Part shown: positions 20,136 to 49,033 of the stretch, one piece after another
How positions within the stretch are numbered: position 1 is the first letter of the stretch
Layout: the number at the start of each line of letters is the position of its first letter
Assembly: GCF_004353525.1 (NCBI RefSeq)
Contig: NZ_CP085524.1
Location: 878,001-942,000 of the forward strand
Length of the DNA: 64,000 nucleotides
Direction of reading: 5' to 3'
Origin: Zhaonella formicivorans
Lineage (GTDB): Bacteria > Bacillota > DUOV01 > Zhaonellaceae
Program-made: the position numbers and the translations under genes
Notes under the pieces: generated by a model
Databases searched by the model: none
What the model was told of the DNA's origin: nothing
What the model saw: the letters and a program-made list of their open reading frames with translations, nothing else

Positions 20136-20159
20136 TTCTTCTTCATGTATCCTGTTATG

Positions 20160-24381: not shown

Positions 24382-24401
24382 GGGGGATCTGAATAGGTGT
24401 A

Positions 24402-25214: not shown

Positions 25215-25233
25215 TAACGAGGGAGGAAATAAA

Positions 25234-27032: not shown

Positions 27033-27103
27033 GAGCCAGTAGAGTATTTGGAAATATTGTTTTGTAATAGTTCTTCTGCTTTTTCTTTTGTGGAGCATAC
27101 ATA

Positions 27104-27281: not shown

Positions 27282-27307
27282 AAATGTTTAAAAGGGAGGA
27301 GAAAAAA

Positions 27308-27526
27308 GTGTTTCCAAGCAAAATTGGGATGGAAGTTGTTAAGTTGGAGCAGATGAGAGATGCGGAAATTGAGAGGGTTAAATCTTTGTACAGGGAAAAA
27401 CTCCGGGGACTGCAAAGCATATGTCCGCATGCTTACGATAATGGCGTTTCAGCAGTAAAAGAAGTAAGACATGGGTTTAATTTGTATGAGTCCAGGTGTG
27501 ATATTTGTGGGAAAAGATTAGGCTGA
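27308..27526 (+). CDS. Small zinc-finger-like protein (72 aa)
   Basis: From GTG 27308 behind GGGAGGAG. An N-terminal helix rich in Glu, Lys and Arg is followed by SICPHAYDN and RCDICGKRLG, four Cys/His ligands that could bind one zinc ion. Function unknown. A longer frame begins inside structured element A and is not supported. Confidence 0.55.
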   Translation: MFPSKIGMEVVKLEQMRDAEIERVKSLYREKLRGLQSICPHAYDNGVSAVKEVRHGFNLYESRCDICGKRLG

Positions 27527-27605
27527 TGGTATGGTAACAGGTGTTGCCGTATTATTTTTGCTTGGTTAAAATAAATCTTGTAAGTAAAGGTTAATCCTTC
27601 CAGCT

Positions 27606-27677
27606 CCCCTTTCGTGCAGCCGTGTGGCGGTGCGGTCCATTGGCAGTGCGGTGTCAGTGGATTTTGCACGAAAGGGG
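27606..27677 (+). promoter_or_regulatory. Long inverted repeat sequestering a ribosome binding site
   Basis: CCCCTTTCGTGCA (27606-27618) pairs perfectly with TGCACGAAAGGGG (27665-27677). The right arm overlaps the Shine-Dalgarno AAAGGGGGTGG of the gene at 27686, so the hairpin would block its translation. Confidence 0.6.
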
Positions 27678-27685
27678 GTGGTGTT

Positions 27686-27835
27686 ATGGGCTGTTTTTGG
27701 TCTTTTGTACTTAATGTCTTAAGCCAAATCATTGCCGCGTTAGTGGCAGATTTGGTAAGGATTAAAGGCAAAAGTAAAGAAGAAAGACGGCTCCGCAACA
27801 GCCGCCTTTCTTCCAAAATCCAGAAACACCATTAA
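27686..27835 (+). CDS. Small membrane peptide (49 aa)
   Basis: From ATG 27686: MGCFWSFVLNVLSQIIAALV is a hydrophobic helix followed by a strongly basic tail. The size and layout, and the sequestered ribosome site, recall toxins of type I toxin-antitoxin pairs, but no antisense RNA promoter was identified. A hairpin CGGCT / AGCCG within AAGAAAG / CTTTCTT (27778-27811) overlaps the 3' end of the frame. The membrane peptide might also be a regulatory or leader product. Confidence 0.45.
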   Translation: MGCFWSFVLNVLSQIIAALVADLVRIKGKSKEERRLRNSRLSSKIQKHH

Positions 27836-27933
27836 CACTTTGGGGCTGCACCGCCCTACTTACAGTTATATTATACCACATCGAGTAGTTTTTGTTACAT
27901 TGTTTATTCAAATATTCCGGGGAGGTTGTACAA

Positions 27934-29019
27934 ATGAAGAAAGTTTTAACTGTTGTGTTGCTCATTGCTTTATTAGTATCGGTTACCCCAGTCTGGGCTA
28001 AGGCTGAAAAGGTATCAAAAACTACAAAGGATAGTGAATGGTTTGTCGGCCAGATTGAAACCTTAGAGGAAGCTAAAAAAATAGCTAATGAGCGCATGGG
28101 AAAGTTAACTGTTCCTCATTGGATTCAAAAATACGATGAGATAGGAAATGGTTATGTAGAGGAAACTACTAGGGAAGTTGAAAATGTTGTTTTTATTCTT
28201 AAAGGACAAAATAAATACTTAGTTGAAGATGTGGGGGCATGGACTCTGTTCACCGACAGTCCTTACTTTGAAAGTGAAATTAAAGCAAAATTATTTGACG
28301 TGGCTTTTGACATGGTGCTTTCATATCCCGAAATAGAACTAGTATCTATTAATGACACTCCCTGGCAGGAGACGGAGTACAAGGATTACTTTGTCAGCGA
28401 GGTCAAGAGGCTTATCAGGGAAGGGGCCGGTTCAGCGTTCAGTATGCTGAGGAACAAAGACCCTTATGCCTGGCAGGTGTTTTTAAACCCCAAATACAAC
28501 GGCAGGGCTTATGAGATTTTCAACCCCAAAACAAGGGAAGAACAGGAATCTGCCGTAAAAATTTTAAGTGAGCTGGAAGTGCTTGACCCTTCATATTCTC
28601 TCCCTGACAAGCGACCAAGCGACGGAAATATTTCCGCTCAGGCGGTGCTGAAGCTCAACGACAACAAGGTTGTTATTGTTAAAAACGGGGCTACGGAGAA
28701 AGTTAACCGTCTGGCAGTGAGGCTCCAGGCCCCGAAAGGCGTCACTATGGTACCGCTGCGGGGCGTTTTGGATGAACTGGGCGCTGATCTAAGCTATGAT
28801 GGTAGAAATAAACAGGTGATAATTAAACAGGGTAATTCAGAAATTGTTTTGAAAGAAAACAGCAGGACAGCTAAAATCAACGGCCAGGCAAAGGAGATAG
28901 TTGCTTCCATGCAGATTCAAAACGGCAGGGCCATGATACCCTTAAGGCTGGTTTCAGATGCTTTGGGATATACTACTGTCTTTAATAGCATGACTGGTGA
29001 AATTACGGTTACTAAGTAA
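27934..29019 (+). CDS. Secreted protein with copper-amine-oxidase-N (stalk) domain
   Basis: 361 residues from ATG 27934 (GGGGAGG upstream). A signal peptide of about 25 residues ends WAKA. The central part is unassigned (YPEIELVSI, NPKYNGRAYEIF). The C-terminal 100 residues form a copper amine oxidase N-terminal-like domain: VPLRGVLDELGADLSYD, VIIKQG, and MIPLRLVSDALGY. Such domains are common in surface proteins of spore-forming clostridia. Likely exported and cell-wall associated (inference). Confidence 0.75.
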   Translation: MKKVLTVVLLIALLVSVTPVWAKAEKVSKTTKDSEWFVGQIETLEEAKKIANERMGKLTVPHWIQKYDEIGNGYVEETTREVENVVFILKGQNKYLVEDVGAWTLFTDSPYFESEIKAKLFDVAFDMVLSYPEIELVSINDTPWQETEYKDYFVSEVKRLIREGAGSAFSMLRNKDPYAWQVFLNPKYNGRAYEIFNPKTREEQESAVKILSELEVLDPSYSLPDKRPSDGNISAQAVLKLNDNKVVIVKNGATEKVNRLAVRLQAPKGVTMVPLRGVLDELGADLSYDGRNKQVIIKQGNSEIVLKENSRTAKINGQAKEIVASMQIQNGRAMIPLRLVSDALGYTTVFNSMTGEITVTK

Positions 29020-29100
29020 TAAAATAAAAATTAATCCCTGGAGCTTATAGATGGCTTACGGGTGTTTTGTTATACTTGATATTAGGGTGGTGGTGCAAAC

Positions 29101-29460
29101 ATGGAAAAGGTTTTGATGCAAATATTAGATGAAATAAAAGGTGTAAAAGGTGAAGTTTGCAGTTTAAGAAGTGACGTTAACGACCTCAAGGTACGTATGG
29201 GCCGCTTGGAGAACCGTATCGACGGCATGGAGACGCGCATGGGCCATGTGGAGTCACGTTTGGACGGTATAGAGTCACGCATGGACCATATGGAGTCCGG
29301 TCTTGGTGTATTAAATAAAACTACAGTACGTATTGAGCAGAAGCTGGACATGGTATACCAACAAACCGGCATGTTAACCGAATTCAAGACTGAAACGGAA
29401 CAAAAGTTTAAAACTCATGATATGGAAATTCAGCTCTTAAAGAAAGCTGTATCACATTAA
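29101..29460 (+). CDS. Coiled-coil protein (119 aa)
   Basis: Almost entirely heptad repeats (VRMGRLENRIDGMETRMG, VESRLDGIESRMDHMESG). It resembles the generic coiled-coil proteins often annotated DUF1640- or t-SNARE-like. No membrane segment. Function unknown; it might organise the adjacent surface proteins. GGTGGTG precedes the ATG and a perfect terminator follows. Confidence 0.65.
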   Translation: MEKVLMQILDEIKGVKGEVCSLRSDVNDLKVRMGRLENRIDGMETRMGHVESRLDGIESRMDHMESGLGVLNKTTVRIEQKLDMVYQQTGMLTEFKTETEQKFKTHDMEIQLLKKAVSH

Positions 29461-29468
29461 ATTTAATT

Positions 29469-29487
29469 GGGCCTTAAGGCCCTTTTT
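29469..29487 (+). terminator. Rho-independent terminator
   Basis: GGGCC / GGCCC with TTAA loop and five T. Confidence 0.8.
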
Positions 29488-29512
29488 ATTTTGGCTTTAG
29501 GGAGGGAAAAAG

Positions 29513-32500
29513 TTGAGGGCAAAAAAAATAACTGCCTGGGTATTACTGCTGGCTGTATTAGTTTTATTTTTACCCCATAGTACTAATAAAGCTGATGCAG
29601 CGACCTGGGTGCCGGACCCGAAAGACCTGGGCACGCTGGAACAGAGAAAAACACCGGTTACGGTAACTTCAGTGACTAATGAGGGTACAGGAAATAAAGT
29701 TTTCCATGATTACTGGCAGATGAAAGTATATGATATTTCAGGAAATTACTTGGGTTCCGGCGAGACCATAGGCGTTGCCAATTCGGGCGGCGACCCCAAA
29801 GGTGGCGTATATAACTATGTGCCCAGGTCAAAACTGGCCGAATGGGTGGAGCTTCTCAATGGCAATTATTCGCATGTTAACAATAACTTCAGTAATTTTT
29901 CAAGCACGTTAAGCGCAAACGGTAAATCTTCAACAAGGATGTGGATACAAAAGTTTGACAGGCTAAACGGGGCCTATACAGAAAACTTTGATGTGACAAC
30001 TAAAACTGCCAGGTTAACTGTAACTCCGTATCCTACGGCTAAAATAACCTATGACAAGTCTACCCGGGCAGGTGAAACTGAGACATTTTCTTTAACAGCG
30101 CAGGGCTATGCGGCATATAACAGGGGCTTAAGCAAATGGGCCTTTTATGTTGACGGAAAAAGAATTTCTTATGGTGATAAAGTAGCAAGTCTTTCAGGTA
30201 AAACAGTCACATATACTTTTGCTATTGCCGGAACGTACACAGTAAAGTTAGAGGTTACGGACAACGTAGGCAGGACGACAACAGAACAAATTACCGTTAA
30301 AGTTGACCCGGCGGCGGCACCTCCCGCCCCAAAACCGCCTTCCAGCGGGCTGGTGGCTGATTTTGAAATGCCTTTCAGTGCTTTAGTGAATACGAACGTG
30401 CAAATTAAAAATACTTCATATACCACCGGCAGCAACTGGATAACTTATGCCGAATGGACAGTCAGCCCCAAGAGTTATACTGGCAGCCTGACAATGCCTG
30501 GTGGAACATTAAAATTCACTCAGCAAGGCACATACGATGTCACTCTAAAGGTTTGGGACAACACAAATAACAGCGATTCAGTAACTAAAAGCATTGTAAT
30601 TTCCGAAGAACTAGTTGAACCACCACCACCGCCGCCTCCGGTAGAGCCTGAGCCGGAAAATATACCGCCTACAGCCAGGATTTCAGGCCCTACTAAAGCT
30701 AAACAGGGGGAAACAGTTATTTTAGAAAACCAAAGCTATGACTTGGACGGGGAAATTGTCTATAACGAGTGGTCAATAAGTCCCAGCACCGGGGTAGATA
30801 CCAATTTTACTGATGAAGAAGCCAAGCTGACTTTCAACCAAGAAGGTACTTATACTGTCTACCTGGACGTAGAGGATGATAAGGGCGACGGGGATACAGA
30901 CAGCCATACGATAACCGTAACCAACCAGCCGCCAGTGGCCCGGATTGGCATAGTAGAGGAAGCTACTCAGGGTGAAGATGTTAACATTAAAAGCCTTTCT
31001 TATGACCCGGACGGGGAAATTGTTTCAACCGAATGGAGCGTTACACCAGAAGGCATGGTAGGTACACTGCAGGGTGAGGAAAATACAGTTTACTTCGATA
31101 CCCCAGGGGATTATACTATATCTCTTAAAGTTACAGACGAGTTTGGAAAAACCAGTACGGCATCTAAAACAATTAAAATTAAACCAGATATTCCGACTGC
31201 ATTTTTTGAATGGAGAGGTACACCCAAAGAGAATAGAAAATTAATCTTGGACGCAGGGAAAAGTGTGGGCAGCACACGTTATCCAATTGACTTTTCCAAG
31301 ACAAAATGGGAGTACATACCTTTGGAGGGACAGAACCCTGACAATATCAAGGTTAGGACTTCTTTAGACTTAAAAATCAGGGAAGTAATGTTTAAGGAGC
31401 CTGGCCGGTATAAAGTAAGGCTTGCAGTTACAAACACAGCAGGCAACACTTCGACCTGGTTTGAAGAAGAAATAACCATTATGCCCGATGAACCGCCGGT
31501 GGCCGATTTTATGCTGCTCAAGACAGTCCTCCGGGATGCGGCAGATGGAAGAACTGCGACAATAGAACCGCAGGATATTTCCTATAGCCCCGATGGAGAT
31601 ATTATTTCTAAACGTATCTGGAAATACAGGTACGATAGTGACAATGACGGTGATTTCAATGATGAAACATGGGTTACTTTGGATAATGGCAATAACCCTC
31701 TGCCCAGGCTTACTTCAGCGGACGTGGGAAAATATCAGTTTGAGTTATATATCGAGGAAAGCTTCGGGCAAGAAACCCTGGAGGAATTTATAGAACCGGC
31801 AGATGTAAAAAAAGCCGATACATCCTTAAAGATAGCTGCAGATAAAATTATTGAAGTTATAAACATACAGCCCGTTGTTGGCTTTGAAGTAAGCCCGAAA
31901 AAGAAAGTTAATATTGTTTTCAGTATAGGCCAATATAACAATATAGCAAGTTTAGATTCATTTATTAATTCAATTTTAAAGCCACAATTATTGGCAAACA
32001 ACATAGCCCTACAAATAACTAAAGATGGGCCATATAACTACCCTGTTCGCTATCAAAACCTTATCTCATATTCTTCTTCTTTTGCTGGTAATTATGGTGG
32101 TCCCGGAGGTGGGAACTATGCTGACGGGGGGTATTTGGTCAGCGATAGGTCATATTATTTTGCAAAAAACAGGTATATTGATATAGGGTATAATTTAAAA
32201 AAATCGGACTTTATTTCTCTTAGGTTTCAAGCGGTTACGGGTGGAGGTGTTACTTCATTAGAAGATATTTATTTCTATGTTAGCAACAATGGGAGTAATT
32301 GGGTATATGTAGGTTCTGCAAAAGGTAATAACAACAGTTCACCTGCTGTTTTGACTGTAAATAGTTCTTCTTTACCCGATAATATACGTTTTTTCCGTAG
32401 TTCAAACCCAAGATGTAACGATTACCTAATAGTTGATATTAATAAATCTACATCACAACTCAACACCACAATAACTAATACCTCTTTTAAGTCAACAGAA

Positions 32501-34333
32501 ACAAATTTTATAATAAACATTGATACACAAACACTTAATTTTTTAAGTGATACGCAAGCAAAATCCGATGTGATTACTAGTTTAATTAAAAATGAAGTTA
32601 ATTTTATTGGTATAGGCTCTGCATCTAATGCCTCTCAATATCAGCAGTTGGTTGATTCAAACCTAAATAACGGCTTGGTTATAACTGACGCTGAATTAGG
32701 GGTTGCCATTCAGCAACTAACCGATTATGTATTAACTGTCGTAAATAACAAAACCACTAACATTCAGTACGCCTTGCTAAACGAAGAAATAGATTATAAA
32801 ACTTACTATGAAGATCCAGAAAATGACCCTGAATACGCAAGGCGCTGGAAGTATGCACATGACCCGGCTTACTTTGAAAATAGCTTAGGGTTGGCCAGCT
32901 ATCACGAATTATGGGTATCGGATAAAGTAACAACTTTTGATCGCGTAGGAAAGTTTGACGTAATTTTTCAAGCCAAGGACAATCCGAAAAAAGACAACCG
33001 TTTCGATAACTACCGCCTGTGGAGCTATATGCCCTTAGACCATCTCACTATTTACGTCCACAGAAAGCCGGTTGCCTTATTTAGTTTTACTTTGACTAAA
33101 ATCAATCCGTCTACCTATGGCATTACATTTATTGATAAAGCATATGACTTGGATCACCAGTCCCTGCCGAGCAAAGGCATTACAGAAAGGGAATGGAAGT
33201 GGAGGGAACACGGTGAAACAATCTGGCATACTGGTCAACCATTTACCCTATCTGCCGGTAAAACTTATTATGTGATGTATAGGGTAAAAGACATGGAAGA
33301 ACAATGGTCAGACCCCAATGTAAAAGTTTTAACTACATCAGGTAATCTACCCCCGGTGGCCGAGTTTATAGTTTCACCCAGTACAGTACCGGTAAACAAA
33401 ACTGTGACACACCAGGATTTGTCTTATGACCCAAACGGTGACCCAATAGTGGAACGGGCCTGGCGTTATCAAAGACCGAACGGCACTTGGGTAAACAGTG
33501 GCGGGACTTTCCCTGGCAATGTTTACACGATTATAGGTGAGTACAGGATTGAACTAAAGGTACGGGATAGTCAAGGGGCATGGTCTGAGCCATTTTATCA
33601 AACCGTAACGGTAATTCCCGAAAACCAGAAACCGGTGGCCCAGTTCTCTATAAGCCCGGACCCTGTCATTTCCGATGAGCCGTATACCCTACGTGAGAAT
33701 TCCTGGGACCCGGAGGGAGACCCAATAGTTGCACGAGAATGGCAGTTCCAAAGGCCCGCTGACTCCGGCTGGGTTGACATTCCTTCCTGGAAAAGTACCT
33801 TCGACGAGATGGGGATTGATGAAGACGGAATATACAAATTCCGGCTCCGTGTGAAGGATGACCCTTCAGGCAGAAGCCCTGGTTTAACTCCCATGTGGAG
33901 TGACTGGACGGAGCAAACAGTTAGGGTTGAGGCTAAGCTGGTTGTTGACGGCGAAAGTGAAAAAAATACTTACGCTGCCGGCCAGGCCATGCTGTTGAAC
34001 GCCCGGACAGAAGGAAAGGCATACAAGGTGGAAGCCGTAATGTGGTATTCAAAGAATGATTTTGTTTCCACCAACGTAACTAGTTTAAAACCCGATTCTG
34101 CATTAACCAATCCACTACAGGACACTATGACTTGGCATAGCAGGAGAACCAAAGCCGAGGGAAGAGATTTGGTTGTAATTATACCGCTTGGCACTCCGGA
34201 AGGTACTTATCAGGTAAGGTTTACTGCATATAAGAAAAGAGCGGACGGAAGTGACAAGACAAGCGTTGATATAGTTAACATCAATGTTAAGGGAAATGTC
34301 TATGACCATTCCAGGTCAGAAATATTAAGGTAG
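29513..34333 (+). CDS. Large secreted PKD-repeat adhesin (1606 aa)
   Basis: Starts at TTG behind GGAGGGAAAAAG. A signal peptide ends about residue 31 (NKADA). Repeated PKD/Ig-like domains carry the motif YDPDGEI, YDLDGEIV or YDPNGDPI followed by Y-x-V/I-x-L-x-V. A proline stretch (EPPPPPPPVEPEPENIPP) lies near residue 370. Around residues 785-1085 an AT-rich insert reads VNIVFSIGQYNNIAS up to FIINIDTQTLNFL, resembling a von Willebrand A-like domain interrupted by a Gly/Asn/Ser-rich segment. No LPxTG anchor is seen. It may act as the mating or attachment adhesin of the element. Confidence 0.75.
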   Translation: MRAKKITAWVLLLAVLVLFLPHSTNKADAATWVPDPKDLGTLEQRKTPVTVTSVTNEGTGNKVFHDYWQMKVYDISGNYLGSGETIGVANSGGDPKGGVYNYVPRSKLAEWVELLNGNYSHVNNNFSNFSSTLSANGKSSTRMWIQKFDRLNGAYTENFDVTTKTARLTVTPYPTAKITYDKSTRAGETETFSLTAQGYAAYNRGLSKWAFYVDGKRISYGDKVASLSGKTVTYTFAIAGTYTVKLEVTDNVGRTTTEQITVKVDPAAAPPAPKPPSSGLVADFEMPFSALVNTNVQIKNTSYTTGSNWITYAEWTVSPKSYTGSLTMPGGTLKFTQQGTYDVTLKVWDNTNNSDSVTKSIVISEELVEPPPPPPPVEPEPENIPPTARISGPTKAKQGETVILENQSYDLDGEIVYNEWSISPSTGVDTNFTDEEAKLTFNQEGTYTVYLDVEDDKGDGDTDSHTITVTNQPPVARIGIVEEATQGEDVNIKSLSYDPDGEIVSTEWSVTPEGMVGTLQGEENTVYFDTPGDYTISLKVTDEFGKTSTASKTIKIKPDIPTAFFEWRGTPKENRKLILDAGKSVGSTRYPIDFSKTKWEYIPLEGQNPDNIKVRTSLDLKIREVMFKEPGRYKVRLAVTNTAGNTSTWFEEEITIMPDEPPVADFMLLKTVLRDAADGRTATIEPQDISYSPDGDIISKRIWKYRYDSDNDGDFNDETWVTLDNGNNPLPRLTSADVGKYQFELYIEESFGQETLEEFIEPADVKKADTSLKIAADKIIEVINIQPVVGFEVSPKKKVNIVFSIGQYNNIASLDSFINSILKPQLLANNIALQITKDGPYNYPVRYQNLISYSSSFAGNYGGPGGGNYADGGYLVSDRSYYFAKNRYIDIGYNLKKSDFISLRFQAVTGGGVTSLEDIYFYVSNNGSNWVYVGSAKGNNNSSPAVLTVNSSSLPDNIRFFRSSNPRCNDYLIVDINKSTSQLNTTITNTSFKSTETNFIINIDTQTLNFLSDTQAKSDVITSLIKNEVNFIGIGSASNASQYQQLVDSNLNNGLVITDAELGVAIQQLTDYVLTVVNNKTTNIQYALLNEEIDYKTYYEDPENDPEYARRWKYAHDPAYFENSLGLASYHELWVSDKVTTFDRVGKFDVIFQAKDNPKKDNRFDNYRLWSYMPLDHLTIYVHRKPVALFSFTLTKINPSTYGITFIDKAYDLDHQSLPSKGITEREWKWREHGETIWHTGQPFTLSAGKTYYVMYRVKDMEEQWSDPNVKVLTTSGNLPPVAEFIVSPSTVPVNKTVTHQDLSYDPNGDPIVERAWRYQRPNGTWVNSGGTFPGNVYTIIGEYRIELKVRDSQGAWSEPFYQTVTVIPENQKPVAQFSISPDPVISDEPYTLRENSWDPEGDPIVAREWQFQRPADSGWVDIPSWKSTFDEMGIDEDGIYKFRLRVKDDPSGRSPGLTPMWSDWTEQTVRVEAKLVVDGESEKNTYAAGQAMLLNARTEGKAYKVEAVMWYSKNDFVSTNVTSLKPDSALTNPLQDTMTWHSRRTKAEGRDLVVIIPLGTPEGTYQVRFTAYKKRADGSDKTSVDIVNINVKGNVYDHSRSEILR

Positions 34334-34346
34334 GAGGTAAAGTGTT

Positions 34347-34793
34347 ATTATTGATAGAGCTACAATGCTGCCCGTTCTTGGCCTGCTTGGCTACCTGAGC
34401 TATGTTGATATAAAAAAGAGGGAAGTGCCCGATGCCGCGGTACTGGCCCTCTTTCTTTATTCTCTTTTTGTTTTACTGTTTAATGCTGATCGATGGGGTA
34501 TGGTAATTGGGCACGCCCTGCTGTCTTTTAAAGTGTTTATAAGCTTTCTTTTATTGGCTTTTGTAACCCAGAGAGGTTTTGGGGGCGGGGACATTAAACT
34601 TATTTCCGCCCTGGCATTCTTTTTGGGAGATAATTTTTTCCTGCTGGCTGCTCCTGCAGCTATCCTGATGTTCTTTACCCTGGTATGGGCTTTTGGTACA
34701 GGAAAAGGTTTTCGTTATGAGATTCCTTTCGTCCCATATATATTTTTGAGTTATTTAACTGTTTGTGTCGTAAGGACTTACATGGGAGCCTAA
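34347..34793 (+). CDS. Prepilin peptidase (A24, CpaA/TadV type)
   Basis: About 142-148 residues with six hydrophobic segments. The two catalytic aspartates of aspartic prepilin peptidases are in DIKKREVPD (about residue 15) and GGGDIKL (about 77). It would process the pilins at 25234-25882. An ATG occurs at 34365 but lies 27 bases from AGGAGG; in-frame ATT codons at 34347 and 34350 are at normal distance, so a non-standard ATT start is possible. Confidence 0.82.
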   Translation: MIDRATMLPVLGLLGYLSYVDIKKREVPDAAVLALFLYSLFVLLFNADRWGMVIGHALLSFKVFISFLLLAFVTQRGFGGGDIKLISALAFFLGDNFFLLAAPAAILMFFTLVWAFGTGKGFRYEIPFVPYIFLSYLTVCVVRTYMGA

Positions 34794-34838: not shown

Positions 34839-35864
34839 ATGGCTGATCTGCTTAGGGTGGAAGGGATATACTCCCAGGGTTTCGGAATGCTGTCCAAAAA
34901 AATCATGCGTGACAGGAGGATCCACGTCATTGCCAAGTCTATATATGCCTATATAATCACGTATGCGGGGGCAGGCGAAACTGCTTTTCCGGGAAGGGAA
35001 ATGATTTGCAGCGACCTGGGTATTAACAAAAACACTTATACAAAATATTTGGGTCAGCTGAAAGATTACGATTATGTCAGGATTGAGCAGTCAGTAGGGG
35101 AAAAGGGGACTTTTGGGAATAACATTTTTACAATCGTTTCGATTCCCGCATTTCCTGAAAATGAAATCCACCCTAACTGGCAGAAGGAAAAGGAAAATGC
35201 AAAACTGAAGAATAAGACCGTGTCCCAAGAAATAGGACACGGTAATACAACCGAGCAAGATGTCCAACCGTGTCCTATTTCACCGTATACGGTCAAATGG
35301 GACACTAATAATAACAATATATTTAATAATAACAATATATATAACAACAACAACGATCTAGATACTAATTATTTACTAGATAATAATGAGGCTGCTCAAG
35401 AACAAGAAAAAGTTGTTGTTGTTGTTGAAAATACTCCAGAACAAAAACCTGAAAAGGAACCTTTGGTTTCCGAGGTACGAGAGGCATTATGTGAGATAGA
35501 CCCTGAACTGGTTGATGAAAGCCATGTGGAAATTTGGAAAAAGTATGAGCCGGAAAAAATACTGCAGGCGGTGGCGGTTTTAAAGCAGCAAAAACAGGTT
35601 GAGTCTGTTACAGGATTTTTGATTAAAGCTCTGGAAAACGGCTGGAAACCGGGCAAGGTTTACAAAGGAAGGGCAAGTCCAAATAAAGTAAGAATTTGTA
35701 TCAGTAAACTAAATGAGCTACTGGGCGAGGACTCTTCCGGGTTTATAAAAGCCAAGGCCGAACAAATTAGGCAGGTTTTTGAGGAACACCCTGAACAAGC
35801 AATCGTAAAAATAAAGAAAATGTTTGATAACTACAAAAAATACAAAGATCTTTATTTAAGCTGA
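34839..35864 (+). CDS. Helix-turn-helix replication-initiator-like protein
   Basis: 341 residues. The N-terminal winged-helix region (about 15-85) has SKSIYAYIITYAGAGETAFPGREMICSDLGINKNTYTKYLGQL, as in plasmid and ICE initiator-like HTH_36 proteins. A central Asn-rich low-complexity linker (about 150-190) follows, then a C-terminal helical domain with SVTGFLIKALENGWKPG, reminiscent of RepA/DnaD-like proteins. The linker DNA carries clustered dyads and an AT-rich tract (35218-35345). It may start replication of the excised element. GGAAAGGAGG precedes the ATG. Confidence 0.65.
   Translation: MADLLRVEGIYSQGFGMLSKKIMRDRRIHVIAKSIYAYIITYAGAGETAFPGREMICSDLGINKNTYTKYLGQLKDYDYVRIEQSVGEKGTFGNNIFTIVSIPAFPENEIHPNWQKEKENAKLKNKTVSQEIGHGNTTEQDVQPCPISPYTVKWDTNNNNIFNNNNIYNNNNDLDTNYLLDNNEAAQEQEKVVVVVENTPEQKPEKEPLVSEVREALCEIDPELVDESHVEIWKKYEPEKILQAVAVLKQQKQVESVTGFLIKALENGWKPGKVYKGRASPNKVRICISKLNELLGEDSSGFIKAKAEQIRQVFEEHPEQAIVKIKKMFDNYKKYKDLYLS
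35218..35345. other. Clustered dyads and AT-rich tract inside the rep-like gene, candidate origin
   Basis: CCGTGTCC (35218-35225) pairs with GGACACGG (35235-35242), which also pairs with a second CCGTGTCC (35268-35275); GGACAC recurs at 35300-35305. CCGTATACGG (35283-35292) is a perfect palindrome. TAATAACAATATAT is directly repeated in the AT-rich stretch to 35345. Some plasmid rep genes carry their origin internally in this way, so this is a candidate oriV. Confidence 0.42.
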
Positions 35865-36323: not shown

Positions 36324-36575
36324 ATGCAGATTGATGTAATCAGGATTGGTAATTCCAAAGGAGTCCGCATTCCTGCTGCCCTGCTCAAGCAATGTGGAAT
36401 TGACAAGAGGGTTGAGGTTGAAGTCCAGGAGAACTGCATTATTCTTAAGCCGGTTAAGATTCCCAGAGAAGGATGGGCTGCTGCTTTTAGACGCATGAAC
36501 AGGAACGGAGACGATGTCCTTTTGCTGCCTGATGAGCTAGATAATGACCTCCTGGAGGAATGGGATGAATATTAA
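36324..36575 (+). CDS. mazE: MazE-like AbrB-fold antitoxin
   Basis: 83 residues. The N-terminal SpoVT/AbrB swapped-hairpin domain is clear: VIRIGNSKGVRIPAALLKQ and VEVEVQENCIILKPV. The acidic C-terminus DELDNDLLEEWDEY would bind and cover the toxin. It overlaps the toxin gene by 11 bases, the usual coupling. AGGAGGTACGTT precedes the ATG. Such pairs autoregulate their promoter and stabilise mobile elements. Confidence 0.85.
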   Translation: MQIDVIRIGNSKGVRIPAALLKQCGIDKRVEVEVQENCIILKPVKIPREGWAAAFRRMNRNGDDVLLLPDELDNDLLEEWDEY

Positions 36576-36891
36576 TCAGTATGATGTTTACTGGACCGAC
36601 TTAAATCCTGCCAAGGGGTCGGAAATAAACAAGGTTCGCCCTTGTGTAGTGATTTCTCCACCGGAAATGAATGCTTATTTGCGTACTGTTATTGTTGCTC
36701 CGGTTACAAGTAAAGGGCGGGAGGGTTATCCTACACGGGTTTATATGTCTGTAAGTGACGTATACGGCTGGGTTGTGCTTGATCAAATCCGGGCCATTGA
36801 TAAATCGAGGCTGTGCAATAAAATCGGCAGTTTGGACGAAAATGCAGTTTGTGCCATAAAAAGTGTGATTAAGGAAATGTTAGTAGACTGA
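36565..36891 (+). CDS. mazF: MazF/PemK-type mRNA interferase toxin
   Basis: 108 residues from ATG 36565 (GGAGGA upstream). Typical blocks are YDVYWTDLNPAKGSEINKVRPCVVISP, VIVAPVTSKG and VVLDQIRAIDKSRL. MazF toxins cleave single-stranded RNA at short motifs; the motif here cannot be predicted. Likely maintains the ICE against loss. Confidence 0.92.
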   Translation: MNINQYDVYWTDLNPAKGSEINKVRPCVVISPPEMNAYLRTVIVAPVTSKGREGYPTRVYMSVSDVYGWVVLDQIRAIDKSRLCNKIGSLDENAVCAIKSVIKEMLVD

Positions 36892-37857: not shown

Positions 37858-37883
37858 GGCGGTAAGTTTTTCTTGCCGCCTTT
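37858..37883 (+). terminator. Rho-independent terminator
   Basis: GGCGGTAAG / CTTGCCGCC stem (one G-U), T-rich tail. Confidence 0.75.
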
Positions 37884-37911: not shown

Positions 37912-39273
37912 ATGCATAGCTTTAAAAATCTTAAGTTTCATAAACGTAAAAATATGAGTATTTCCCTGAAATTTGGTTTTATTGGAGTTGGACTTATGGG
38001 GGGCAGGGTAGTGGATACCATAGCGCAGCTTTTAGGGCCGGACGGTAAACAGCTATATTCCACCTTGGCAATTAATATCAACAGGCAGGATCTTGATTCT
38101 TTGCAGCATGTTGGTAACAAACTACAGCTTAACTCACCGTTTAAGGCAGCTGGCAGGAATCCCGAGGTTGGTTATGAGGCACTTTCACAGAATGAAGATA
38201 CAGTGAAGAAAGCAATCGCAGATCTAGCCTTTCAGTCGGACTTTCTCTGGTTCGTGGCTGGCCTGGGAGGCGGCACAGGGACCGGGTCGATACTGCAGCT
38301 GGTGCAGTGGGCAGAGGACCTGCAGTCCATTGGCGTTGACTTCGGTATCATAGTGTCCCTCCCCAGGGTTCTAGACGGCTATCAGGAGAATAAAAACGCG
38401 CTGCTGGTACTGGAACAGTTAGACAGGGCTGTGGCAAGCCGGTTGTTCCCTGTGATTATTGTTGATAATGAATTACTTTGTACAAGGTACCTGGAAAAGA
38501 GAAAGTATGAAAATATAAGCGTTGACTGGACACAGCACAGCAATGCGGAGATCGCTGGGTTGCTGCATCAGATGAATATTATCACAACTCAAGTCCCATA
38601 CGGTCATAAACATTTTGACGGTGAGGAGTTCAGGCTGGTATTGAAAGCAGGCGGATGTATGCAGTTTGCTAAGACAATGATAGACATAAAAGATTTCCGG
38701 GATGAGTTAACTATTAAAAACTTATTGCAAAGGTCTATCCAGAACGGAACGGCATCGGGAGGATATGATGAAGAAGATGCTGTCATGGCGGGTATTTCAG
38801 TATTTGCGCCCTTTACCATGGCTAACGAAGTCTATGATGTGTCCAATGTCCGTATACTTGAAAATGCTGTTAAGGATATTTGCCCACGGACAGAAGTCAG
38901 GTGGGGTCATTATGTGGATTACAACACCAGTGCCCCACGGGTTGAAATTTATTCTGTAATCTCTGGCCTGGGGTTGCCCCGCAGGGTCCTGGATATACAG
39001 GAACTGCTCAAAGGACTCAAGCCCAAGGAGGCGGCCAGAAAGCTGGATTTAAATTTTGGGGTAGAAATAGAAGAAAAAAAGGAAAAACCCTCTGTTACTT
39101 CAGCTATTGTAAACCCCTTTGCCAGAAAGAAAGTTGAACAGCACCGGCAAGGTGAGCAGCCAGAAGGGAAGGTAGTACCTCTGTCACCGGAACCTAAACT
39201 AAACTGGCAAAATGCACAGGTAAAAGAAATACCGGCCTGGTTAAAGCGTTACCCAGATGAACCTGTTATATAA
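37912..39273 (+). CDS. tubZ: TubZ-like tubulin/FtsZ-family GTPase
   Basis: 453 residues. The nucleotide-binding core shows FGFIGVGLMGGRVVDTIAQ (T1) and VAGLGGGTGTGSILQ, the tubulin signature loop (T4), near residue 118. The C-terminal tail is disordered and basic-proline rich (about 395-453), as in TubZ, and lacks the FtsZ conserved tail. TubZ filaments treadmill and move TubR-tubC complexes during plasmid or phage DNA segregation. A cognate iteron array and a small winged-helix gene follow directly. AAAGGGTG precedes the ATG. Confidence 0.78.
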   Translation: MHSFKNLKFHKRKNMSISLKFGFIGVGLMGGRVVDTIAQLLGPDGKQLYSTLAININRQDLDSLQHVGNKLQLNSPFKAAGRNPEVGYEALSQNEDTVKKAIADLAFQSDFLWFVAGLGGGTGTGSILQLVQWAEDLQSIGVDFGIIVSLPRVLDGYQENKNALLVLEQLDRAVASRLFPVIIVDNELLCTRYLEKRKYENISVDWTQHSNAEIAGLLHQMNIITTQVPYGHKHFDGEEFRLVLKAGGCMQFAKTMIDIKDFRDELTIKNLLQRSIQNGTASGGYDEEDAVMAGISVFAPFTMANEVYDVSNVRILENAVKDICPRTEVRWGHYVDYNTSAPRVEIYSVISGLGLPRRVLDIQELLKGLKPKEAARKLDLNFGVEIEEKKEKPSVTSAIVNPFARKKVEQHRQGEQPEGKVVPLSPEPKLNWQNAQVKEIPAWLKRYPDEPVI

Positions 39274-39306
39274 ATCCCTAACATGAATTCACGGTATGAG
39301 TACATA

Positions 39307-39384
39307 TTATGAATTTGTTTTATAAATTCGTTTTTTAAATCTGTTTAATAAATCCGCTTAATAAATTCGTTTAATAAATCTGTA
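39307..39384 (+). repeat. Six tandem 13-bp iterons, candidate tubC centromere
   Basis: Exact 13-bp period: units at 39307, 39320, 39333, 39346, 39359 and 39372 with consensus T(A/T)ATAAAT(C/T)(C/T)GTT. The first unit is the most divergent. It lies between the TubZ gene and the winged-helix gene, where a centromere bound by TubR is expected. TubR binding would also repress transcription of the gene downstream. Confidence 0.78.
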
Positions 39385-39427
39385 AAGTGTATTTATGCTA
39401 TGAATTTAAATGGAGGGTGGTGAAAGA

Positions 39428-39784
39428 GTGGACATACCTTCGCTTTCTCTTGAACAAATAAATTATTTTGCTGCAAAACTTACTGAAAACGATGATCTCT
39501 TGGAAGGAGTGCTTAGCTTTATCCGGCATGAGGTATATAACAAGTTTGTGTCAAAGGAAACACTGGCCCAGGATATAAAAAAGAGCAGGACTGTTGCCAG
39601 TAAAATTTTAAACCTTTTGGAAGGAATGACTTTAATAAATGTTACATACGCCGGAATGCCACGGACATGTATGGCTGTCCTCAACGAAAACGGCAGGGAG
39701 GTGGTAAAAAAACTGGTTGATATGGGCGTTCTGGAAATAACTGAGGAAGGAGTGAAGAGAGTTGGGACATATAACAGCCCCTGA
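39428..39784 (+). CDS. TubR-like winged-helix DNA-binding protein
   Basis: 118 residues from GTG 39428 (GGAGGGTGGTG upstream); an ATG at 39410 overlaps that site. The segment FVSKETLAQDIKKSRTVASKILNLLEGMTLINVTY is a winged helix with beta-wing, the fold and size of TubR adaptor proteins. It sits next to the iteron array and TubZ gene, which is the main support for the assignment. In the Bacillus pBtoxis system tubR precedes tubZ; here the order is reversed. Confidence 0.62.
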   Translation: MDIPSLSLEQINYFAAKLTENDDLLEGVLSFIRHEVYNKFVSKETLAQDIKKSRTVASKILNLLEGMTLINVTYAGMPRTCMAVLNENGREVVKKLVDMGVLEITEEGVKRVGTYNSP

Positions 39785-40070: not shown

Positions 40071-40442
40071 TTGCCTCAAATTCATCTTAAAATAAGCGAA
40101 AGTTTAAATAAAAAAATCACAGCATTAGCTTCTGCAGAACAGAAATCCAAATCTGAAGTTGTTAGAAATATTTTAGAACATTATACAGCCGAAAACGCTG
40201 CGGAAAATTCATTAGACTTGGTTTCGGAAACAATCCGCAAAGTTATTAAGTCTGAACTAAGGCGCACCGAGGACAGACTGGCAAAGATAGCTGCCAAAAA
40301 TACTATTGCAGCTGCAACCGCCATGTACCTTAATACCCTGGCTATAGAGGACTGCGGTAAAAGAAACGCTATAGAATTTTATAAAGAGGCAAGAAAAAAG
40401 GCGGTTGCTTTTTTACAAAGCGATGAAAAGGAGGATAGCTAG
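40071..40442 (+). CDS. Ribbon-helix-helix relaxosome accessory protein
   Basis: 123 residues from TTG behind AAGGAGG. The N-terminal IHLKISESLNKKITALASAEQKSKSEVVRNILEHY is a ribbon-helix-helix DNA-binding motif; the rest is helical. MobC/auxiliary proteins of this kind bind oriT and help the relaxase. It ends 13 bases before the relaxase gene. Confidence 0.72.
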   Translation: MPQIHLKISESLNKKITALASAEQKSKSEVVRNILEHYTAENAAENSLDLVSETIRKVIKSELRRTEDRLAKIAAKNTIAAATAMYLNTLAIEDCGKRNAIEFYKEARKKAVAFLQSDEKEDS

Positions 40443-40455: not shown

Positions 40456-41730
40456 GTGGCAGTTAAATCTCCTGTGATATTTAAACTGAAATATTATTCA
40501 CCTACAAACAAAAATAAAGCCAGGAATGTCGCTCACATAAACTATATTGCTAACCGTCCGGGAGTTGCTTTAGAAGAACCTAACCTGGAGGAAGAAGAAT
40601 TCAGCCTGGAAAGCGCCAATATCCACGTGAAATACATGGGTGAGCGACCCCGTTCCCACGGGCTTTTTGGCCCGGAGGAACATATACTTGACCCGCGGGC
40701 GGTTCAAAAGGAACTTAAAAACCACCAGGGATATGTCTGGCGGGCCATAGTATCACTGCGGGAAGAAGATGCTGTCAGGCTGGGATATACTGGGCGCGAG
40801 GCTTGGGAAAAAATGCTCCGCACTTCTGTCGAAGAAGCGGCGGGGAAAATGGGTATTAAACCAACTAACTTAAGATGGGTGGCTGCCTTTCACCAGGAAA
40901 AAGGCCACCCTCACGTTCACATGGTATTGTGGGAGAAAAGTCCTGAGAAATTACGTTGGACCAAAGAACAGGCAAAACAAGAACTTATTGCTATGAAAAA
41001 GACGTTTGTCAAAGAATTATATGCTGACGAACGGGCTAAGCTCTTAAGAGAGAAAACGGCGCTCAGGGAATACATGCGCAGCCAAACTAAGCTTAATGTC
41101 CAGGAAGCCAGGCTCAAATATAAGTCCTTGAGAAAGGATTTTAAAAAGCTCAGACTTGAAATTAAGTCTTTGGAAGGCAAAGAACCCGGTGTAGCTCCCG
41201 TGTTAAAAGTGAGCATACCCCCGGAACTTAAAGGCTTAGTAACTGATGCTTATAGTGAGCTGGCATATAAAATCAATTGTCTTGCAGCTATTATGCCTAA
41301 ACGCGGCAGGGTGGCCCTCAGGTTTATGCCTGAGCATGTAAAACAGGAAGCCAGGGCTGTGGCTGACTGGATCTTAAAGCAGCCTGAATTTAAGGGGCAA
41401 GTTGAAAGGATACAGGAAATAGCTGCGGAATACAAGAAACAATATACCATTAAAGATACTGCCCTGACAGAAGCTAAGGAGAAAGCTTACGCAGAAATCC
41501 GGGACCGGGTCGCCCAAATTGTTTTAAAGGGCGCTGCTGCCATCAATAAGGAGGAACGGTTAGAAAATGATATAATCAGGGGAGTCTGGAATAGTGCATG
41601 GCGGGCTGTTGAAAAAGAATGCAGCCGTGCTCAGGCAGAAATGCAGCTTGCCCAACAAAAAGAAGCATTGAGGGAAAAAGCCAAACAAAAGGCAAGGGAG
41701 CAAGGTTATGCTGAAAATGAAAAGGAATAA
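40456..41730 (+). CDS. MobL-type relaxase
   Basis: 424 residues from GTG. The N-terminal half has VIFKLKYYSP, NKARNVAHINYIANRPG and HQEKGHPHVHMVLWEK, where the three-histidine motif near residue 150 binds the catalytic metal. This pattern fits the MOB-L family of Firmicutes (pLS20 type). The C-terminal half is helical and charged. It would nick oriT and lead the strand into the channel formed by the genes from 43167 on. A Tyr in the first 50 residues is the likely nucleophile, not identified here. Confidence 0.85.
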   Translation: MAVKSPVIFKLKYYSPTNKNKARNVAHINYIANRPGVALEEPNLEEEEFSLESANIHVKYMGERPRSHGLFGPEEHILDPRAVQKELKNHQGYVWRAIVSLREEDAVRLGYTGREAWEKMLRTSVEEAAGKMGIKPTNLRWVAAFHQEKGHPHVHMVLWEKSPEKLRWTKEQAKQELIAMKKTFVKELYADERAKLLREKTALREYMRSQTKLNVQEARLKYKSLRKDFKKLRLEIKSLEGKEPGVAPVLKVSIPPELKGLVTDAYSELAYKINCLAAIMPKRGRVALRFMPEHVKQEARAVADWILKQPEFKGQVERIQEIAAEYKKQYTIKDTALTEAKEKAYAEIRDRVAQIVLKGAAAINKEERLENDIIRGVWNSAWRAVEKECSRAQAEMQLAQQKEALREKAKQKAREQGYAENEKE

Positions 41731-43166: not shown

Positions 43167-45059
43167 ATTAAAAAAAATATTAAAACCGGGTTCCTTATTG
43201 GTATTACAGTAGTTTCAATCCTTGATGTGCTGGTACTGCCGGCGCTTTTTTATTTTCCCGACTTTATCAGGTGGTACGGCTTTGGGCCGGCGCTGGGCAA
43301 ACTGGCAGCAGTCTTCGTGAAAAAGCCGTGGATGGGCACTGAACTGCTGGTAAAACAGGGAAGTTACCGTACTATATGGCTTTTTTTACAGCTGTTTTTA
43401 GGGGCAGGTCTGTTGTCTGTCCTTTGGAGGCCGGAACTGCCGAAAGTATCAAATAAAATAGCTGATGGCCTTGGAGGCCCTCCTGCTGCCGGAAGGGGCC
43501 AGTTTGGCACTTCTCGCTGGCGCACTGAAAAGGAAATCGCTAAAACCCTTGACTTGTATTTTACTGATCAAAACTTATCCAAAGGGGGAGTGGTAGTAGG
43601 AGCTGAAAAGCTGGACAGGAAAATGAAAGTTTATTTAGAGAGCCAGGACACCCATGTGTTACTACTGGGTGCAACCCGTTCAGGTAAGACCCGTTCAGTT
43701 ATTCTTCCCACTGTCTGGTGCATCGGAAAAACAGGTGAAAGCATGGTGCTGACCGACCCGAAGGGGGAGCTTTTTGAAAAAAGCTCAGGATATCTGAAAA
43801 ACCAAGGGTATGAGGTTATTTTGCTGGACCTTAGAGAAACTTTGCGGGGTAATCGCTGGAACGTGATGGAACCGGTCGTCAGGGCAGCCGGGGAGGGAAG
43901 GGATGATAAGGCTGTGGAAGCATCTTTGGACATAGCCCATGCCATAGTGTACCAAAAAGCACACAACAGCGACCCCATCTGGGAGCTGGGTGAAAAAGCC
44001 ATAGTGGCCGGTTTGATTCTGTCTGTTGCCTATGAGGCCGCAGATATAAGTCAGAAGCATATGTACAGCGTGGCTATGATGCTGGCCAGACTGGCCGTAT
44101 TTGATGAGGACGGTTATTGCCCCTTAAATGAATATGTTACCGGCCTTGGCATGCTGCACCCGGCAAGGGGAGCATTCTCAACGGCCCTGATGGCTTCGCC
44201 AAAGACGAGGGCTTCGTTTTTTGCCGGGGCCATGGCCAAACTGCAGCTCTTTACCGACCCTAATATTGCAGCTATGACAGCAATGCAGGACCATAACCTT
44301 ACCGCCATAGGAGCTAGACCAACGGCGGTATTTTTGGTTATCCCGGATGAAAAGTCAACCCGTTATCTTTTGGCCAGCCTGTACATAAACCAGGTCTACC
44401 AGGCTTTGGTGGAGTTAGCTCTAGAAAATGGCGGAAGGGTTAAAAACCGTGTCCATTTCCTGCTTGATGAGTTTGGGAACCTGCCGCCAATACCTGATAT
44501 GGATAAAAAGATCACAGTAGCCGGTGGCAGGGGGATGAAATTTACCCTGGCCCTCCAGGGTCTGTCCCAGCTAAAGCCCCTTTATGGTGAACGGTCACAG
44601 ACAATTACCGGCAACTGCCATACCTGGCTGTATTTAAGCACCACTGACCCTGATACGGCCAGAGTCATTTCTGAAAAGACTGGCAAATATACGGTACAGA
44701 CTGAAAGCTCTAACTATAACTACTCGGAAAACCGTGTGGGGGGCAGTACCGGCTTGGGACTGACGGGCAGGGCTTTACTTACCCCTGATGAAGTGGAACG
44801 TTGGCCAAAAGGCTCTTCATTGGTCCTGCAGGCAAGAGAAATGCCTGCAAGACTTCCTTTGCCTGACCTCTCTGAGTGGCCGGCGGATAAGGAACTGGAT
44901 GGGAGTTACCAGGGATGTTATGGCATCAACAAAATGCCTGATGTGCAGGTCTGGTATCCTGGTTTGAGTTTTACTGAAAAACTGCCTGAGGGTGGTGATG
45001 AAGTTGCCTGTAGTAAAGTAACGGGGGAAAATGTGCAAAACATTTTAGAACAATTATAA
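43167..45059 (+). CDS. VirD4/TraG-type coupling protein
   Basis: About 630 residues. N-terminal membrane segments (about 8-32 and 66-88) precede the ATPase domain: Walker A GATRSGKTR near 168-176, TDPKGELFEKSSGYL, Walker B VHFLLDEFGNLPPIPD near 432 and ALQGLSQLK. It docks the relaxase-DNA complex to the channel. A GTG exists at 43227, but that cuts the first helix; ATT at 43167 lies 9 bases after AGGAGG and opens IKKNIKTGFLIGITVVSIL, so an ATT start is likely. First gene of the transfer operon. Confidence 0.9.
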   Translation: MKKNIKTGFLIGITVVSILDVLVLPALFYFPDFIRWYGFGPALGKLAAVFVKKPWMGTELLVKQGSYRTIWLFLQLFLGAGLLSVLWRPELPKVSNKIADGLGGPPAAGRGQFGTSRWRTEKEIAKTLDLYFTDQNLSKGGVVVGAEKLDRKMKVYLESQDTHVLLLGATRSGKTRSVILPTVWCIGKTGESMVLTDPKGELFEKSSGYLKNQGYEVILLDLRETLRGNRWNVMEPVVRAAGEGRDDKAVEASLDIAHAIVYQKAHNSDPIWELGEKAIVAGLILSVAYEAADISQKHMYSVAMMLARLAVFDEDGYCPLNEYVTGLGMLHPARGAFSTALMASPKTRASFFAGAMAKLQLFTDPNIAAMTAMQDHNLTAIGARPTAVFLVIPDEKSTRYLLASLYINQVYQALVELALENGGRVKNRVHFLLDEFGNLPPIPDMDKKITVAGGRGMKFTLALQGLSQLKPLYGERSQTITGNCHTWLYLSTTDPDTARVISEKTGKYTVQTESSNYNYSENRVGGSTGLGLTGRALLTPDEVERWPKGSSLVLQAREMPARLPLPDLSEWPADKELDGSYQGCYGINKMPDVQVWYPGLSFTEKLPEGGDEVACSKVTGENVQNILEQL

Positions 45060-46594: not shown

Positions 46595-47226
46595 TTTTGA
46601 AAATTAATAATAAGCCATTGAAACAAGCTTCAAAAAGCAGTGAAGGTTTGGGAAATACGGTTCAAAACTGGCTGCCTTTCAGGGACCTGGAGGACTACCT
46701 GATAAGCACAAAGGATAACCGACTTATTGCTGTGCTGAGGGTAATGCCGTTAAATATTAATTTAAAGTCGGATAATGAAAAGGGCAGAATTATTTCAGCA
46801 GTACACGAAGCTTTTAACGGACTGCAGTTTCCCATTCAGATTTTCGCGGTACCAAGGCCCATCGATCTTGATATGTATATAAGAAAACTACAGGAACTGT
46901 CTTCCGATGCGGGTAATTTTAAAAGAAAAACCTTGCTGCTTGACTATATAAGGTATGTAACCGGAATGGTTGCAGGTGGTGAAGCGCTGGAAAAGCGCTA
47001 TTATATTCTTCTTTCTGCTGAAAAAGGGAAAAATTCCAAAGCAGAGCTGCTGCAAAAGGCTCATGAATTAGGCTCTGGTTTATCACGGGCGGGATTAGCT
47101 GTTTCAGTTTGCGATGGGCAAGAGATTTTTGACCTTATGTTTACTTTTCATAACCCTGTGCAGGTGGCTTTTGAAAAAGCTCATGAAATTGGTATTAACA
47201 CTTATGTAACTTATTACGGTGACTAG
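46591..47226 (+). CDS. VirB4 N-terminal-domain-like protein
   Basis: 211 residues starting TTG and overlapping the upstream gene by 4 bases. LPFRDLEDYLISTKDNRLIAVLRVMPLNINLKS resembles the N-terminal region of VirB4/TraC-type ATPases, here encoded separately. No P-loop is present. It probably acts as a complex with the following ATPase. Confidence 0.6.
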   Translation: MILKINNKPLKQASKSSEGLGNTVQNWLPFRDLEDYLISTKDNRLIAVLRVMPLNINLKSDNEKGRIISAVHEAFNGLQFPIQIFAVPRPIDLDMYIRKLQELSSDAGNFKRKTLLLDYIRYVTGMVAGGEALEKRYYILLSAEKGKNSKAELLQKAHELGSGLSRAGLAVSVCDGQEIFDLMFTFHNPVQVAFEKAHEIGINTYVTYYGD

Positions 47227-47236
47227 GAGGTGCTTT

Positions 47237-49033
47237 ATGAGAAAAAAAAAACAAAAAAGTGTACAGGTTTTGCAGTCAGGCATTGTGGATCAGTTTGCGC
47301 CTGTTGTTTTGAATTTCGCCCAAAACCATATTACCTTTGGAGAACAGGTTGGCCAGGTATTAGTTATTTTAAACTATCCCCCCAAAGTTCATGCTGCCTG
47401 GCTTTCCCGGATGTCTAACATGCCGGGAGTAGTCTGTTCAGTTCATATCGTACCCACAGACCCAGCCAGGCTGATTGAAAATATAAACAGGAGCATAGGA
47501 GAACTGACCGGTATTCTTGAACGGGGCGGGAATGCCCTCACTGTCAGCAGGGCGGAACAGTCAATCAAAGACGCTCAGGATTTGCTCAGGAAAATCGACC
47601 AGGAACAACAACAGGTTTTTAATGTGGTTGTTTGTCTGTTGGTTTTGGCTAATGATATGGAAGTCCTTGAGAGGAGAGTCAGGCAGGTACAGGCAGCCCT
47701 TGCAGCTGCGGGAATGAGGGGCAGAAACCTGATGTTCCTGCAGGAGCAGGGCCTTTTGGCAGCAGGGCCATGGTGTCATTGTCCGGAAGAAGTGTCCCGT
47801 ATGGCAAAAAGAAATATGCCCAGCGAAACGGTGGCAGCCGGTTTCCCGTTCACTGCCAGCGGTATAAACGATGGTTCGGGTATAATCATCGGCAAGGATG
47901 CCGAGGGGGGTTTGGTACTGATTGATATATGGAAGCGCGGCGGCGACAGGACAAACTCCAACTGGCTTATTCTTGCCAAACCGGGAGCCGGGAAATCTTT
48001 TACAGTTAAAATGATGATCTTGCGGGAACTGGCTCAGGGCAGAAAGGTTATAGTTATTGACCCTGACAGGGAATACAAGCTCATGTGCCACGAACTGGGA
48101 GGTATGTGGATAAACTGCGGGGGAGGCGAAGCAAAAATTAACCCCCTGCAGGTCAGGGAGACCGGAAATATAAAAGATGAAGACAATCAAGAAAACGACA
48201 CGGTGGTACAAAGCGCCCTGGCTGTCCACCTGCAGACTGTCAGGACTTTTTTTGCCCTCTACATGCGGGACTTAACGGATTTGGAAAAAACGGCCCTGGA
48301 AGAGACGCTGGTGGAAGTATACAGGGAATTTGACATAACCTGGGACACAATACCACGGGAAGTGAAGTTATGGCCCACCATGGCGGATTTATATGCAAGA
48401 GTACGGGAAAGGGCAGAAAAAGAACCTGGTGTATATGGCAGACTGGCGGTGCTGTTAAAGAGGCCGGCGGAAGGCGCCGATGTGGGCCTCTGGGCTGGTC
48501 AGACATCGGTGTCTGCGGATAGCGATTTTGTTGTTCTTGATGTTTACAACTTGCAGCAGGCCAACGATGAGGTCAGGAGGGCGCAGTACTTCAATGTTCT
48601 TACCTGGGCCTGGTCAAAGATAGCCGAAGACAGGACGGAGCAGGTTATTCTGGCCGTTGACGAGGCGTGGCTCCTGGCAGACCCGCAGACACCGCAGGCG
48701 CTGCAGTTTTTGAGGGAAACTTCGAAGCGGATTAGAAAATATGAAGGAGCGCTCTGGGTTATTTCCCAGAACGTGGTGGACTTCCTGGACCCGGCAGTGG
48801 CCAGGCACGGCCAGGCCCTGCTGGACAACCCGTGTTATAAATTGCTGCTGGCGCAGGGTGAAAAGGATTTGCAGGCTCTGGCCGGACTGATGAATCTTTC
48901 GGAGGCGGAAATTGAGCTTTTGGCTACTGCAAAAAGAGGGGAGGGACTGATGGTTGCAGGTTCCCAGAGGATAAGAGTTAAAATTGAGGCTGCTCCCTAT
49001 GAAATGCAGTATCTGACGGGTGGGGGACGGTAA
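47237..49033 (+). CDS. VirB4-type conjugation ATPase
   Basis: 598 residues from ATG 47237 (GGAGGTGC). Walker A KPGAGKSFTVK near 246-256, VIDPDREY, Walker B-type EQVILAVDEAWLLADPQTPQ near 473, and LRETSKRIRKYEGALWVISQNVVDFL. It energises substrate transfer and channel assembly. The N-terminal domain is short because part of it is in the preceding gene. Confidence 0.9.
   Translation: MRKKKQKSVQVLQSGIVDQFAPVVLNFAQNHITFGEQVGQVLVILNYPPKVHAAWLSRMSNMPGVVCSVHIVPTDPARLIENINRSIGELTGILERGGNALTVSRAEQSIKDAQDLLRKIDQEQQQVFNVVVCLLVLANDMEVLERRVRQVQAALAAAGMRGRNLMFLQEQGLLAAGPWCHCPEEVSRMAKRNMPSETVAAGFPFTASGINDGSGIIIGKDAEGGLVLIDIWKRGGDRTNSNWLILAKPGAGKSFTVKMMILRELAQGRKVIVIDPDREYKLMCHELGGMWINCGGGEAKINPLQVRETGNIKDEDNQENDTVVQSALAVHLQTVRTFFALYMRDLTDLEKTALEETLVEVYREFDITWDTIPREVKLWPTMADLYARVRERAEKEPGVYGRLAVLLKRPAEGADVGLWAGQTSVSADSDFVVLDVYNLQQANDEVRRAQYFNVLTWAWSKIAEDRTEQVILAVDEAWLLADPQTPQALQFLRETSKRIRKYEGALWVISQNVVDFLDPAVARHGQALLDNPCYKLLLAQGEKDLQALAGLMNLSEAEIELLATAKRGEGLMVAGSQRIRVKIEAAPYEMQYLTGGGR

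Follow-up and report, generated by a model that had tools for sequence, protein, structure and literature searches.

Type III partition systems have been described for the Bacillus plasmids pBtoxis, pBc10987/pXO1-like and pBsph, and for pCLG2 and phage c-st of Clostridium botulinum. They comprise the GTPase TubZ, the winged-helix protein TubR and a tandem-repeat centromere, tubC, which is located upstream of tubRZ, with tubY nearby (PMC7762940). TubR clusters on tubC and represses its own operon, while the TubR complex follows the minus end of the TubZ filament via the TubZ tail (PMC5016525). The first demonstration that an ICE is actively partitioned came from an actin-type module, the ParM-type system srpMRC of SXT/R391, which was demonstrated experimentally to stabilize R391 at low copy number (PMC4489591). 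Filament-forming motors of plasmid type are also encoded on Bacillota chromosomes, i.e. the ParMs of Desulfitobacterium and C. botulinum (PMC12270681); the words "integrative", "integrated" and "relaxase" are all absent from the main text of that report. No description of a TubZ on an ICE was found in the open-access literature, to which the search was confined.

The locus analyzed here shares features with each of these systems. A TubZ GTPase, a winged-helix TubR and tandem repeats are all present, as in the TubZRC systems of Bacillus and C. botulinum, but in the order tubZ-tubC-tubR and on an ICE integrated in a tRNA gene, whereas in those systems tubC lies upstream of tubR-tubZ. The cassette resembles srpMRC as a candidate active partition module on an ICE, but the latter has a type II actin-like motor, belongs to Gammaproteobacteria and has its centromere upstream of the motor gene (PMC4489591). 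Similarly, the chromosomal ParMs are actin-like, whereas the motor encoded here is of the tubulin type (PMC12270681).

The ICE in tRNA-Trp

The window, i.e. the whole stretch of 64,000 nucleotides that was analyzed, corresponds to positions 878001-942000 of a single 3.31-Mb contig. The left end of the ICE (attL, 20085-20136) is a 52-bp segment that perfectly duplicates the 3′ part of tRNA-Trp and is identical to positions 71080-71131 in window coordinates. The latter copy (attR) is located within the intact tRNA-Trp gene beside a tyrosine integrase gene (69771-71018), both lying 5.8-7.1 kb beyond the window end. As these perfect repeats are 50,995 bp apart, they delimit an ICE of approximately 51.0 kb in tRNA-Trp. 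In another genome from this family, the identical tRNA-Trp/D-Ala ligase junction holds a fragment of a related integrase, which indicates that this site is used by such elements. In addition to the recombinase and the flanking repeats, the element encodes on the + strand a MobL relaxase (40456-41730; PF18555, 5.8e-19), a VirD4/TraG coupling protein (43227-45059; PF02534, 1.7e-59) and the VirB4-type ATPase of a type IV secretion system (T4SS; 47219-49033; PF19044, 1.8e-16), whose full-length relatives in the phylum are 37-67% identical. These features confirm the location on an ICE proposed by the initial annotation.

Several further genes of the + strand are relevant to maintenance of the element. 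One encodes a replication-initiator-like protein (34839-35864; HTH_36, Pfam 1.6e-6) that matches DnaD-like loader and phage replication-initiation PHROGs (phrog_7882, 4.8e-20; phrog_4221, 8.8e-12) and has a homologue (4.5e-33) in a related element of genome G048. A second stability module (36324-36891) consists of a MazE-like antitoxin gene (1.2e-7) and an adjoining gene assigned to a MazF-like toxin by sequence and position; its homologues recur in related ICEs. The right-hand border of the slot occupied by the partition cassette is a ribbon-helix-helix (RHH) gene (40071-40442; RHH_1, 9.6e-4), whose adjacency to the MobL gene is conserved in related ICEs.

The ICE also carries an M23 peptidase gene. 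Its left part (20404-34793) contains Tad/type IV-pilus-like genes (T2SSE ATPase, T2SSF-like, RcpC, A24 prepilin peptidase) and encodes a 1606-aa repeat protein; a T2SSE gene is present in the G048 element too. Past the window, a candidate defence gene encodes an OLD-like nuclease with AAA_15 and TOPRIM domains (L003, 826-2565, − strand). An intact IS110 is found at 51520-52605, near a second IS110-type transposase gene (55398-56560) that is split into overlapping frames encoding an N-terminal DEDD part and a C-terminal part. A prophage origin was not supported, as no relative was found among viral contigs and the phage collection yielded at most weak matches to phage G.

The tubZ-array-tubR cassette

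The tubZ gene (37912-39273, + strand) encodes a tubulin-like GTPase of 453 aa, with a C-terminal tail ending in EIPAWLKRYPDEPVI. Matches to Pfam Tubulin (4.4e-12) and TubZ-like_C (7.1e-11) both exceeded the curated cut-off. In a phmmer search of solved structures the top match was the TubZ/RepX of a B. cereus plasmid (4ei7; 8.3e-44, residues 15-371), with the next TubZ (approximately 5e-16) and FtsZ (4.8e-12) behind it by a wide margin. The GTP signature loop GLGGGTGTGS (core GGGTGTG) is intact, as is the T7 motif HFDGEEF, which aligns with HFDASEF of 4ei7 and retains the catalytic acid. On these grounds the ORF encodes a genuine TubZ, as had been claimed; the host FtsZ is encoded by a separate gene. 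An intrinsic-terminator-like hairpin (37858-37880, + strand; 9-bp stem and T-run, -16 kcal/mol) is located 31 bp upstream of tubZ, and no sigma-70-like promoter was found between the two.

The tubR gene (39428-39784, + strand) encodes a winged-helix adaptor of 118 aa. Its GTG start was favoured over an alternative ATG at 39410 because of the Shine-Dalgarno sequence GGAGGG at 39412-39417, 10 nt 5′ of the GTG. Since the product alone gave no significant family match, a TubR profile was built from other genomes, using the small ORFs next to tubZ and leaving out the window protein. When 599 ORFs from the window and the adjacent DNA were searched with this profile, the frame at 39410-39784 was the sole match (2.6e-8); with the G048 relative also omitted it was recovered at 9.3e-7. 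In these searches the next ORF scored 0.12-0.13. The profile of the whole TubR family matched the solved TubRs 6aht (2.9e-17), 4asn (6.1e-8) and 3m8e of pBtoxis (9.4e-7), all of them ahead of the best MarR-type match (8.2e-5). Structure prediction, which had been suggested as a check, yielded a winged helix: by TMq, the AlphaFold model based on eight aligned sequences (pLDDT 75) is closest to TubR 3m8e (0.61, rmsd 2.6 Å), and one MarR-type protein with a marginally better E-value reached a TMq of only 0.46. Folding of the single sequence was poor (pLDDT 60) and gave no structural match. The profile, the solved TubRs and the fold thus agree in identifying a genuine TubR.

The intergenic region is occupied by 13-bp iterons (39257-39412, + strand), which constitute a putative tubC. 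Self-identity at lag 13 is 0.66, whereas dinucleotide-shuffled sequences gave 0.42 (z = 11, 0/500). A weight matrix built from the six strongest copies (39309-39386) gave the flanks of the array a score of 4.8 vs -62 ± 14 in shuffles (0/5000), and the weaker copies keep the register. As this register persists from 39257, within the last tubZ codons, to 39412, at the edge of the tubR Shine-Dalgarno sequence, the array fills the entire interval. Six exact iterons had initially been described; the array is real, but only the spacing is exact, and approximately 12 units stand in register, providing the tandem repeat expected of type III partition. The weight-matrix scan revealed no second 13-bp cluster elsewhere in the ICE. 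Single units occur elsewhere in the window at chance frequency (51 found vs 50 expected), and so clustering alone is informative. Units of this length are not confined to the present locus, as a 13-bp array is also found 5′ of tubR in genome G154.

Since the array extends right up to the Shine-Dalgarno sequence of tubR, it might be an operator only, through which TubR autoregulates while TubZ acts elsewhere, e.g. by localizing the conjugation complex. In known systems tubRZ is repressed by TubR (PMC5016525), TubRZ adjoins VirD4 or VirB4 genes in the G048 and Alicyclobacillus elements, and the partition proteins of R1 are reported to enhance transfer (PMC4949242). However, some 12 in-register sites far exceed the need of a simple operator, a single array serves both purposes in known type III systems, and the ICE has no other array of this kind. 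We consider this explanation improbable, although it is the strongest of the alternatives to a partition centromere.

The order tubZ-array-tubR is unusual, as first noted: the order is tubR-tubZ in each of the eleven other systems considered (L016, L017, L018, L019, L023, L028, L029, L031, L032, L033 and L034). The array therefore does not lie upstream of a tubR-tubZ operon, and gene order is typical of type III systems rather than definitional. No TubY-like MerR/coiled-coil candidate was found among the ORFs scanned, which comprised part of the total, and a divergent TubY could escape detection.

Other tubZ-like loci were also observed. A second probable chromosomal TubZRC lies on a 4.93-Mb contig of G154 (L023, G154:C3:1507001-1527000; approximately 9415-9640 and 9665-11530), with a long 13-bp array 5′ of a TubR-like gene, a TubZ of 517 aa with an N-terminal extension, and a VirB4-like gene nearby. 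In L022 (G051:C14) two tubZ-like genes encoding 533 and 479 aa are adjacent (10580-12181 and 12512-13951), and no obvious TubR was found upstream of them on the same strand. In G311, G374 and G354 (L024, L025 and L026, respectively) a chromosomal TubZ-like protein gene adjoins PEP-carboxykinase-like and cupin-like genes, a non-plasmid neighbourhood conserved across the three genomes.

The partition slot in related ICEs

Of the other genomes in the phylum sample, 31 encode a close VirB4 homologue, and among these only G048 encodes a TubZ at the threshold used. The G048 element (L008, L019-L021) has relaxase, VirD4, VirB4, Rep-like and ArdC-like genes in common with the window ICE, and its TubZ is 43% identical and shares an IPAWL tail. 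Unlike in the window ICE, its genes are in the order tubR-tubZ, have another repeat 5′ of tubR and are placed between the relaxase gene and virD4.

Five ICEs whose VirB4 is 63-67% identical to that of the window ICE (L041, L042, L043, L048 and L049) carry a gene for a 340-aa actin-like protein (ALP) between an HD gene, or its neighbourhood, and the RHH-MobL pair. This protein matches ALP_N (7e-33), and its closest relative is the plasmid ParM 6izr (2.4e-70). The ALP gene is followed by a gap with repeats of the TGTTTACA/TTTGTATTACA type approximately 81 bp apart, and then by a conserved ORF of 93-95 aa (longer in L049); this layout of motor, repeats and adaptor-like gene is that of tubZ-array-tubR. 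The repeats (L041, 11706-12172, and the equivalents in L042, L043 and L048) are likely to be the centromere of the ALP module. In most relatives simple autocorrelation detected no periodicity in this gap, the repeats recurring at approximately 81 bp instead.

Among the 17 related loci read, ALP genes are present in 12, not always exactly in the slot between HD and RHH-MobL, and TubZ in none. Conversely, no ALP is encoded in the window ICE or in the 60-kb region examined that surrounds the G048 TubZ gene. The two motors occur together in 0/19 elements, for which chance alone gives approximately 0.12, two TubZ carriers being too few for a statistical test of mutual exclusion. In the VirD4 tree the window ICE forms a long branch and groups with 13 ALP-bearing or unassigned elements (100/100), while in the other clade the G048 element is placed next to an element with an ALP (100/98). 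As these clades are separate and supported, the two TubZ carriers represent separate changes. Because the corresponding slot of sister ICEs is filled by a ParM-like actin module, the best reading of the sequences is that the motor class has been exchanged, ParM-like actin vs TubZ, and that the present module was gained by this exchange. Tubulin-type and actin-type motors thus appear to alternate in one slot of one ICE family, which is the main new point of this analysis.

The slot comparison also bears on the possibility that the cassette is mainly a replication module, with the array as an iteron origin and TubZ/TubR supporting replication of the excised circle, as RepX/TubZ was first described for some Bacillus plasmids. 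Many plasmid homologues are annotated as "plasmid replication protein", 4ei7 itself is named RepX, and origins typically have tandem iterons. However, a separate replication-initiator-like gene is present at 34839 and is common to the G048 element, and the sister ICEs have a ParM-like actin in the slot. ParM-like actins are known for segregation, not for replication initiation. A primary role in replication seems slightly less probable still than an operator without a centromere.

Proposed function and implications

The cassette is, in all likelihood, a complete type III (TubZ-TubR-tubC) module that would segregate the excised 51-kb ICE. The excised ICE would form a low-copy circle, and the replication-initiator-like gene fits a replicating circle. 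TubR would bind the 13-bp array cooperatively to form a segrosome, and would probably also repress its own gene. The end of a treadmilling TubZ filament would then hold the segrosome and carry it along, so that each daughter cell inherits a copy before the ICE re-integrates. We infer such a plasmid-like, actively segregated phase from the comparison with the ParM-type slot and from the precedent of SXT/R391. That the cassette is instead a decaying, non-functional remnant of an integrated plasmid, as the IS110 insertions might indicate, is very unlikely, since intact ORFs with conserved motifs encode TubZ, TubR, integrase, relaxase, VirD4 and VirB4, the att repeats are perfect over 52 bp and the iterons stay in register across 156 bp.

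The end of the TubZ tail, EIPAWLKRY, resembles DIPAFLRRK of the host FtsZ (which ends in LDIPAFLRRK). The sole other TubZ found with an FtsZ-like ending is that of G048 (NIPAWLE); the tails of the remaining TubZs listed are acidic, of the NPLLRK type or of other kinds. A five-residue word common to the window and G048 tails arose in 65/20,000 trials with shuffled tails. The resemblance suggests contact with partners of the FtsZ tail. More speculatively, and with rather low probability, the TubZ tail could carry a copy of the conserved C-terminal peptide of FtsZ, by which TubZ filaments would dock on such partners (e.g. FtsA or SepF), coupling segregation of the excised ICE to division and replacing the usual tail contacts and TubY.

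The observed slot contents suggest that ICE-borne ALPs are one possible source of chromosomal ParM genes, and motors in such slots may account for some of the plasmid-type motors that have been described as chromosomal. The related ICEs with TubZ or ALP provide matched pairs for asking what sets the choice of motor. Tubulin and actin alternatives in one slot argue for an actively segregated extrachromosomal phase as a general need of these elements.
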